32,524 bases of DNA from Bacteroidota bacterium (GTDB taxonomy: Bacteria; Bacteroidota; Bacteroidia; B-17B0; Aurantibacillaceae), in the NCBI GenBank assembly GCA_013297775.1, contig JAAFIL010000042.1:1-32524 (forward strand), read 5' to 3'. Within the stretch, counting starts at the first letter, position 1. Every line of letters starts with the position of its first letter. The translations under genes and the position numbers were made by a program. Positions 5,471 through 23,848 of this stretch are shown here, piece after piece. Under the pieces are notes generated by a model that was not told the DNA's origin, ran no database searches, and saw only the letters and a program-made list of their open reading frames with translations.

Positions 5471-5712
5471 TAAGCATTCATTCACTTCTCCCTTTGCGAA
5501 TCTTTGCGCCTTGGCGTGCCATATTTTTTGCGTGCCATCCCTACTAATAGACAAATGTCCTAATCAATTTATCGCTTTTATCCTAAAAAATATATTCTTA
5601 AACCTAAGCATTATCAATCCAATTACTTCTTCCTTTGCGAGTCTTTGCGCCTTTGCGTGCCATACCTTTTTGCGAGTATTCCTTCTGATAAACAAGCGTT
5701 CTTTTCATCCTA
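5471..5712. repeat. Imperfect duplication with TTTGCG words
   Basis: Two diverged copies, about 5471-5565 and 5605-5712, share the order TAAGCATT, then CCTTTGCGA, TCTTTGCGCCTT.GCGTGCCAT, TTTTTGCG and a TA/GATA(G/A)ACAA tail. The offset varies from 134 to 141 bases because of small indels. The vocabulary is that of the tandem duplication at 1735-1938, but this block is more decayed. Confidence 0.6.
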
Positions 5713-12153: not shown

Positions 12154-12334
12154 ACTTTTTACTGAACGGCATTTTTATGAAATACGTTGTTGTAACGGAA
12201 ATAATATTTTTCATTACTTTTTCTCCTTCACCATAGAAGCACTATGCCTCAGTCGAAAAAGTACCTGTTTTATTGGGCTTTCGCCTCTCACTACGATTCC
12301 TATTGCATAATCTCGGATAATAAATTGCGCACTT

Positions 12335-12496
12335 ATACCAACATCATTTCTAAAAGATACGTTGACCCAGTTTCTTTTTCTCTAATACTTCCTCAAAAAT
12401 TATACCCGTAGGCCTTGCTACGCCTATAATTTTTTCGTCGTCTAAAAGAAAAATAATTCTGGTTCAACTTGTATCTTTTAGAACCGATATTGGTGT
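12335..12496. repeat. Long palindromic repeat, copy 1 (MITE-like)
   Basis: The roughly 162-base element starts ATACCAACATCATTTCTAAA and ends AGAACCGATATTGGTGTT; the ends are imperfect inverted repeats of about 38 bases. Its centre is a second palindrome, AAAAATTATA...TATAATTTTTT around GTAG...CTAC (12394-12435). Nearly the whole element can fold into one long hairpin. Copies 2 and 3 are at 21253-21412 and 23627-23792. No protein is encoded. This copy lies between two convergent genes. Confidence 0.8.
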
Positions 12497-12600
12497 TAGT
12501 TCAATAAAATCAACCAATACAGAACACCATTTTAAAAAGTTCGGAAAAAAGCAAAGAAAGTCTTTTGATTAAAGGTTAAATACGTTATTGATATTATGTG

Positions 12601-21208: not shown

Positions 21209-21252
21209 TTTTTTTGTTTTTAAAATCAGGAAATTACAAATTATTTAGTCTA

Positions 21253-21412
21253 ATACCAACATCATTTCTAAAAGATACGTTGACCCCGTTTCTTTTTCCT
21301 TTATACTTCCTCAAAAATTATCCCCGTAGCCCTTCTACGCAAATAATTTTTTCGTCGCCTAAAAGAAAAATAATTCTGGTTCAACTTGTATCTTTTAGAA
21401 CCGATATTGGTA
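21253..21412. repeat. Long palindromic repeat, copy 2 (diverged centre)
   Basis: The ends ATACCAACATCATTTCTAAA and AGAACCGATATTGGTAT match copies 1 and 3. The centre differs (ATTATCCCCGTAGCCCTTCT then ACGCAAATAAT) yet still pairs as AAAAATTAT/ATAATTTTT around GTAG/CTAC. It lies between divergent genes, unlike the other two copies. Confidence 0.8.
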
Positions 21413-21532
21413 TAAATCAGTATTTTCCTAAAGTTTTTTACTTGGCCAAGATGATTAAACTAATTTGTTATTCGTGGCTGAATGCCTTTTAATACTGCCA
21501 ATTTGCTTTTAATGTACATCTATTTTGTCAAC

Positions 21533-23546: not shown

Positions 23547-23626
23547 AATTTATACCCATTTGAAGAGTGTAGTGCTTTAGAATTAATACCTCGACTCGTG
23601 ATAGATTTTTATTGCATAATTCCATC

Positions 23627-23792
23627 TAATACCAACATCATTTCTAAAAGATACGTTGACCCAGTTTCTTTTTCTCTTATACTTCCTCAAAAATTATACC
23701 CGTAGGCCTTGCTACGCCTATAATTTTTTCGTCGCCTAAAAGAAAAATAATGCTGGTTCAACTTGTATCTTTTAGAACCGATATTGGTATTA
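23627..23792. repeat. Long palindromic repeat, copy 3
   Basis: The roughly 166-base element starts TAATACCAACATC and ends GATATTGGTATTA, so the terminal 9 bases (TAATACCAA / TTGGTATTA) are a perfect inverted repeat. Its interior is nearly identical to copy 1, including the central GTAGGCCTTGCTAC hairpin; the visible changes are single bases (TCTTAT for TCTAAT, CGTCGCC for CGTCGTC, AATGCT for AATTCT). Confidence 0.82.
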
Positions 23793-23848
23793 CATTTAAA
23801 ACTAAGTTTTTAGAAAGATGAACTACGTTGTTTATACATCTTAAATTT

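Follow-up and report, generated by a model that had tools for sequence, protein, structure and literature searches.

What is a 160-bp hairpin that stands three times, always in the same orientation and always between genes, within 12 kb of one bacterial contig? The question is raised by a stretch of 32,524 nucleotides, here called the window, which is contig 66 of the 4.35-Mb draft genome of a Bacteroidota bacterium (Bacteroidia; B-17B0; Aurantibacillaceae; assembly GCA_013297775.1, contig JAAFIL010000042.1, positions 1 to 32,524). A first-pass annotation of the window had noticed the repeats and offered three options: miniature inverted-repeat transposable elements (MITEs), repetitive extragenic palindromic (REP) elements moved by a RAYT transposase, or transcribed structured RNAs. 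Here, we report that the repeats are a non-autonomous MITE-type transposon, whose family is named M1 (TACCAA...TTGGTA, 160 bp). M1 has relatives scattered over the class that keep their length and inner core while their terminal arms differ, and the outer arms bear a signature of folding of one strand. We consider it probable, by a fair but not a wide measure, that M1 is one family of a class-wide non-autonomous MITE-type group in which one-strand folding is needed for propagation.

The features of the three copies are as follows.

12333..12335, no strand: left target duplication of copy 1, TTA
12336..12495, plus strand: element copy 1, 160 bp, TACCAA...TTGGTG; its folding signature belongs to the minus strand
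12496..12498, no strand: right target duplication of copy 1, TTA
21251..21253, no strand: left target duplication of copy 2, TAA
21254..21412, plus strand: element copy 2, 159 bp
21413..21415, no strand: right target duplication of copy 2, TAA
23627..23629, no strand: left flanking triplet of copy 3, TAA
23630..23789, plus strand: element copy 3, 160 bp, TACCAA...TTGGTA
23665..23751, plus strand: core of copy 3 (about 36-122 in element coordinates, limits approximate); among families whose termini differ, it is better conserved than the arms
23701..23716, no strand: central stem-loop of copy 3, CGTAG...CTACG, terminator-like on either strand when the consensus is scanned
23790..23792, no strand: right flanking triplet of copy 3, TTA, unlike the left one

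As the first-pass annotation had proposed, the three repeats are copies of one element, now delimited without the target duplications, and all of them lie on the plus strand between larger open reading frames (ORFs). The second palindrome described at the centre is found there as a smaller hairpin. Inverted ends of about 38 bases are obtained if gaps are allowed, whereas the ungapped arms measure 26-31 bp; and no gene is present, as had been said, although copy 2 is overlapped by a mechanical ORF of 92 amino acids (21214-21492) that begins with TTG. Copy 3 had been singled out for its perfect TAATACCAA/TTGGTATTA ends, taken as a defined terminus. The ends are defined, as TACCAA...TTGGTA, but the outer TNA is target duplication and not element, and this copy is the only one in the window with mismatched triplets (TAA/TTA), those of copy 1 (TTA/TTA) and copy 2 (TAA/TAA) being matched. 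Together with short flanks (23621-23797), copy 3 forms one long hairpin, with RNA folding energies of -57.0 kcal/mol for the plus strand and -71.6 kcal/mol for the minus strand, and on either strand none of 200 shuffled sequences folded as well (z -11.5 for plus and -11.0 for minus).

The repeat is far from confined to these three copies. A 28-base end pattern, allowed up to two mismatches, occurs at 117 forward and 116 reverse places in the genome, 233 ends altogether, against none for the reversed pattern used as a control; since each element has two such ends, the genome holds about 115 copies. The element measures 157-162 bp in 92 of the 95 loci read with both flanks, and 74 exact 160-mers are on average 98.7% identical to their consensus, nine of them without any difference. 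This near-identity of about 115 copies looks like a recent burst. There are 18 left ends without a partner: four lie at contig ends and one at a locus end, three belong to copies with an inserted repeat, six are truncated, one is a chimera and three are chance matches.

How did the copies arrive at their sites? Identical triplets flank the element in 81 of the 95 loci, and all 81 are TNA (42 TAA, 25 TTA, 10 TCA and 4 TGA), whereas triplets taken at twelve other offsets, from -6 to +6, agree in at most 14 of the 95. An earlier, smaller sample of the same genome had given 43 of 54. The middle base of the triplet agrees in 85 of 95 loci, compared with a mean of 35 and a maximum of 49 in 2000 shuffles. 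The comparison of occupied with empty sites that had been suggested is possible within the genome itself, because other repeats that host copies have relatives without them, and these empty relatives carry the triplet once: the copy at L036 can be set against L013 (93% over 149 bp), that at L009 against L011, L026 and L065, and that at L010 against L017 and L027. A single triplet at empty sites and a matched duplication at occupied ones indicate insertion by staggered cuts with 3-bp repair. Less than 500 bp long and without a gene, with terminal inverted repeats, a target duplication and many, mostly intergenic copies, the window repeats are a non-autonomous MITE-type transposon, and this option of the first reading thus gains support from the duplications, the empty sites and the copy number.

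The same genome contains a second family, M2, with other arms, the same TACCAA tips, the TNA duplication and a core recognisably related to that of M1. Its ends are TACCAARTGAACTTATATTTTAGTCC (loci L100, L106, L108, L111, L113, L114, L115, L119, L123 and L126), and its length is less fixed: among ten paired copies, five measure 159 bp, one 183 bp and four 218 bp. The TACCAARTGAACTTATA ends, once considered as those of an insertion sequence (IS), were rejected as such since they belong to M2. Two loci carry mixtures. At L127:1501-1662, adjoining an M1 copy, there is a 162-bp element with M2-type ends and an unrelated interior (GGCGTAGCAGGCAGCTACGTCG), a sign, as judged from its sequence, of exchange of ends and interiors. 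On the reverse strand of L179, near 200-240, a 37-base piece joins an M1 left end to an M2 right end, with TTA on both sides.

Outside this genome, plain DNA similarity found the element in 1 of 30 relatives, and M1-like termini were seen in two other genomes of the genus (G002 and G045); a single end match in a third (G014) was judged chance-like. A covariance model built from six sequences reached much further. In the order it matched 26 of 87 genomes (5 of 10 genera), including 15 of 40 in the genus itself; in the class, at E<=1e-6, it matched 20 of 295, of which 14 fall outside the order and represent eight other families. The 275 class genomes without a match at this threshold serve as a specificity control. 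Since only 10 to 34 candidates were scored, the numbers of elements per genome are minimum values. That related genomes would lack copies, which the first-pass annotation had named as a possible refutation, did not come true. From these matches two alignments were made, keeping the best strand per locus: A2, with 50 of 74 rows kept, 39 of them representing one element per genome, and A3, with 60 of 109 rows kept, from 22 genomes, most of which are also in A2, and including some near-identical copies. The length is 158-162 bp in 57 of the 60 foreign elements of A3. The model prefers its own length; the TNA duplications found at those ends are independent support, being present in 31 of the 60, or in 34 if a 2-base shift is allowed, against 2 of 2040 in the control. 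Likewise, matching triplets stand at the model's ends in 28 of 48 inspected foreign loci. The termini vary across the group from TACCAA via TACCATTTCG to GGCTCTGTTA or, with the boundary set one base further out, GAGCCTGTTTA. Column by column, the alignment is least informative in the arms, at 0.6 bits, and reaches 0.9-1.2 bits in the core and 1.2 bits at the tips. The group combines a near-constant length and a conserved inner core with different terminal arms.

Searches elsewhere returned little. The end pattern had no match in viral contigs, nor had the whole element in plasmids and phages. A pattern that skips the commonest ends of the window's genome gave seven stretches in genome contigs, four from the metagenome-assembled genome JASGCO01 (Sediminibacterium sp., the G045 above) and three judged to be chance. 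Rfam 15 had no match to the window at gathering scores, and not one of the five matches obtained from 20 loci at E<=0.1, which include a tRNA and a cobalamin riboswitch, coincides with the element for which its locus had been selected. In a literature search limited to top-ranked results, no paper describing the element was found.

Why should the arms remain paired while their sequence changes? In the six sequences of the model, 24 of 56 pairs have changed on both sides, compared with 9.7 in shuffles; in A2, taking all 73 distinct rows, the number is 56 of 59 against 44, a count in which 24 of the 74 rows were read on the opposite strand. The mismatches that are left depart from chance; an A-C mismatch on the plus strand is a G.U pair on the minus strand. 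With expectations taken from shuffled columns, the 24 outer pairs of the 39 genomes show A-C at 0.80 of expectation, G-U at 0.13 and other mismatches at 0.17, a ratio reached in none of 500 shuffles; the second set (A3) gave 0.76, 0.15 and 0.18 for its outer pairs, reached in none of 300. The covariance model rewards G-U on the plus strand and is thus biased against this result. When the arms were paired by sequence only, A-C exceeded G-U by 158 to 36 in 78 elements of the order, by 25 to 6 in 13 elements of a GC-rich family and by 41 to 8 in 19 elements of other families. The A-C cells are spread over 20 of the 24 positions and 44 of the 50 elements, and they have arisen both from A-T (67) and from G-C (33), so that one-strand deamination alone is inadequate as an explanation. 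Covariation together with G.U tolerance on one strand, the mark of a structured RNA, is accordingly found in the outer arms. A protein that recognises double-stranded ends could not distinguish an A-C from a G-U mismatch. The minus strand thus probably acts, and folds, in single-stranded form, be it as RNA or as DNA, between which these alignments do not discriminate, and the strand-specific signature makes a structured transcript, one of the three options at the outset, newly plausible.

Such maintenance of one strand's fold would seem unexpected for an ordinary mobile hairpin, and a scheme for M1 and its relatives can be outlined as follows. The ends would be recognised in trans by a DDE transposase that selects TNA targets and may belong to the IS5/IS1031 type. 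One long hairpin would form from the minus strand, either in RNA or in single-stranded DNA, and elements unable to form it would not be propagated. This would account for pairing that is strict between families and relaxed among fresh copies: in recent M1 copies the changed pairs are mostly broken, comprising 41 other mismatches, 38 A-C, 22 G-U and a single compensated pair. Broken pairs in fresh copies, together with the lack of an overall orientation bias, argue against a local benefit to the host wherever a copy sits, and in favour of a constraint on those elements that seed new copies, so that the fold may promote propagation and not host function. A more radical version, in which the mobile element is the foldable strand alone, about 160 nt of fixed length and core with exchangeable termini and a 3-bp duplication, moved by an enzyme that needs the folded minus strand, is one we hold only tentatively and rather doubt.

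This scheme has to be weighed against several observations. The minus strand has the lower minimum free energy in 38 of 39 genomes and in 60 of 60 elements, but shuffled minus strands also fold better, and part of the gap is thus base composition; relative to shuffles the minus strand leads in 30 of the 39 genomes. For this reason the energy gap alone was dropped as evidence and the A-C/G-U test used in its place. The signature itself is limited to the outer arms: the 19 middle pairs give 0.44 for A-C, 0.34 for other mismatches and 0.15 for G-U; the 16 inner pairs are reversed, with 25 G-U and 11 A-C, one pair contributing 14 of the G-U; and the 35 pairs inside the outer 24 of the second set give 0.44, 0.46 and 0.29 for A-C, other and G-U. 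Fresh copies lean weakly towards A-C (38:22 as above, or 24:16 as distinct changes), and the A-C bias could be mutational in part. Matching triplets are missing in 14 of the 95 loci of the genome and in 26 of the 60 foreign elements. The orientation relative to tandem genes is unbiased overall (21:15, other genomes included). Finally, no transposase with matching ends was found in the genome by searches for PF01609, PF13359 and PF13586, or among the PF01609 loci of the genus. At E<=0.001, PF01609 is without a match in three carriers of the element (G008, G043 and G045); this makes an IS5 origin less likely and suggests that the helper may be of another kind.

The search for a helper can be summarised further. 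An autonomous IS with the same ends commonly accompanies a MITE but does not define one. In the window's genome, PF01609 matched two places: one is an IS1380-like gene where a contig ends, the other an IS5/ISL2-like gene that is broken and has AGACCTCTTTC ends. PF13359 matched this broken gene alone; PF13586 had no match in three genomes, this one among them. Paired TACCAA ends were seen at none of the 28 PF01609 loci of the genus. Opposite TNATACCAA ends lying 600-3500 bp apart with the same triplet make 11 pairs in the loci read from the genome, two of which have similar ends, and both of these are neighbouring M1 copies. The IS1380-like gene was considered as a partner because of a TACCAA upstream of it and was rejected, that TACCAA being a piece of M2. 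At this locus (L065, contig 112), the gene stands beside the M2 piece and is cut by the apparent start of an IS5/ISL2-like IS, which by reading has AGACCTCTTTC ends and an ACT duplication and of which a broken copy lies on contig 78 (L067). The shortest contig seen in the assembly is 2,559 bp, so that a repeated IS may be missing from it.

Could M1 be an ordinary MITE, in which only the termini matter and hairpin, core and strand bias reflect ancestry, template switching and mutation bias? The main MITE hallmarks are all present, template switching in imperfect palindromes can yield covarying inverted repeats without selection, and the slight lean of fresh copies and the missing or reversed bias of the inner stem would fit as well. 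However, neither template switching nor recognition of double-stranded termini predicts that the outer arms tolerate A-C but not G-U. The A-C cells, present at most positions and in most elements and reached by both routes, are not accounted for by one-strand deamination alone, and core and length are preserved while the termini change. We regard an ordinary MITE as unlikely, though it has to be taken seriously.

A second alternative, a structured RNA or bidirectional terminator that serves the host and has spread through its usefulness at gene ends, draws on the positions of the copies. The gene context was taken from a simple ORF caller (>=80 aa), not from a gene finder, for copies with 1 kb on each side (n=52). 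Fifty of these 52 lie outside ORFs, yet 81% of TNA sites in 60 contig starts lie within them, and by the same caller 7 of 44 foreign loci lie within an ORF. Gaps between convergent genes hold 26 of the 50 intergenic copies, compared with 22% of the intergenic length in contig starts (p 2e-6), and 13 of 37 elements in other genomes. A terminator-like hairpin with a T-run is present on both strands of copy 3, and in M1 alone the minus strand runs the same way as the flanking tandem genes in 12 of 16 cases (12:4; p 0.08). The location bias fits the removal of harmful insertions, and avoidance of genes and promoters alone would yield the same distribution; moreover, fresh copies break pairs freely, the tandem bias disappears once other genomes are added, and the covariance model has no match in 25 of the 40 genomes of the genus. 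A role for the host is hence improbable as the reason for the spread.

Still less probable, by a little, is that M1 is REP-like and that a domesticated HuH enzyme (TnpA_REP/RAYT) mobilises it in the form of single-stranded DNA. Strand-specific folding would suit a single-stranded DNA substrate, in which G.T pairs are tolerated too, and the taxon agrees, TnpA_REP being found in Bacteroidetes. GC skew is negative for the plus strand of the element in 58 of 96 entries (p 0.05 by the sign test and 0.08 by the Wilcoxon test), a tendency that a preference for the lagging strand could produce, though neither skew nor gene orientation yields a firm result. Against this stand the matched 3-bp duplication and the related empty sites, since HuH, REP and IS200-type transposition is not known to make such a target duplication; the right triplet tracks the left one, as the middle base shows, and is therefore unlikely to be element sequence; and the ends have no GT[AG]G foot. 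The REP/RAYT option of the first-pass annotation is in this way unsupported by the anatomy, RAYT genes themselves not having been searched for. Segmental duplication of one locus with its flanks, suggested by three copies in one orientation within 12 kb, is refuted to the point of being negligible by sharp ends, target duplications, mostly unrelated flanks and the spread of the copies, in either orientation, over dozens of contigs.

Between its genes, this genome holds mobile repeats nested in one another. An IS1380-like palindromic repeat (CCGAG...CTCGG, apparent 5-bp duplication) lies within the core of three M1 copies (L152, L153 and L154), a piece of it ends at 12316, just to the left of copy 1 of the window, and one M1 copy is nested in a third repeat. 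Elsewhere in the window, positions 1659-1934 hold an intergenic repeat with a 102-bp tandem duplication (1731-1832 and 1833-1934, 86% alike), the part at 1659-1798 being related, at 86%, to the flanks of one M1 copy (L060) when these are joined, and positions 5476-5670 hold two 54-bp copies, 85% alike, of a TTTGCGAATCTTTGCGCC-type repeat. CGCAAAG-rich repeats are also seen beside some M1 copies (e.g., L017 and L060).

How does the group compare with known systems? The IS5 family, in its IS1031 group, follows a TNA target rule, and the ends of the relatives L327 and L394, which resemble GAGCCTGTTTA when the boundary is moved out by one base, are presumably IS5-like. Eukaryotic PIF/Harbinger elements and their Tourist MITEs make a 3-bp duplication (PMC2213677), and M1 shares the 3-bp TNA duplication with both systems. 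M1 differs from IS5/IS1031 in that no transposase with matching ends was found among PF01609, PF13359 and PF13586 matches, and it is not filed as a member; we know of no citable family that has TACCAA ends as its signature. Integron attC sites keep the structure of one strand while the sequence varies, as M1 and its relatives do, unlike which they have a cassette and integrase context, none of which was seen here, and no 3-bp duplication. In Bacteroidetes, TnpA_REP (RAYT) genes of subclass 2.6 are flanked by atypical structures with copies elsewhere, as PMC6006769 describes. High copy number, a hairpin, possibly strand-specific folding and the taxon are shared with REP/REPIN, from which M1 is set apart by a true target duplication, its 160 bp and ends without the GT[AG]G foot.

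In the usual reading, bacterial MITEs are internally deleted IS elements, with constraint on the ends alone; here the relation is reversed, in that the ends change, and the inside, the length and the fold of one strand stay. In the part of a review that was consulted (PMC10969869), bacterial MITEs, such as Correia, ERIC, RUP, Chunjie and QMITE, are short, non-coding and intergenic, with terminal inverted repeats, a target duplication and high copy number, and are found nested in other repeats, all as in M1; they give transcripts able to form stem-loops, as a transcript of M1 would, and terminator-like members (SPRITE) are included. Size varies widely within MITE families, and that part mentions no constraint like the length of about 160 bp, the core held class-wide under changing termini or the strand-specific pairing.

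Should movement depend on folding, the enzyme that mobilises the element would have to recognise a folded strand, and the large number of copies offers ready material for a test; should the strand be transcribed, a mobile RNA absent from Rfam 15 would be present in the class. In either case, about 115 copies of a 160-bp hairpin in one genome represent a recent burst whose driver should be traceable. Transposition that makes a target duplication and strand-specific recognition of a hairpin are, to our knowledge, kept apart in known systems, and an element that consists of its foldable strand, if it exists, would unite them. Compared with all of these systems, what is new is the combination of near-constant length, conserved core and one-strand folding signature under changing ends throughout a bacterial class.
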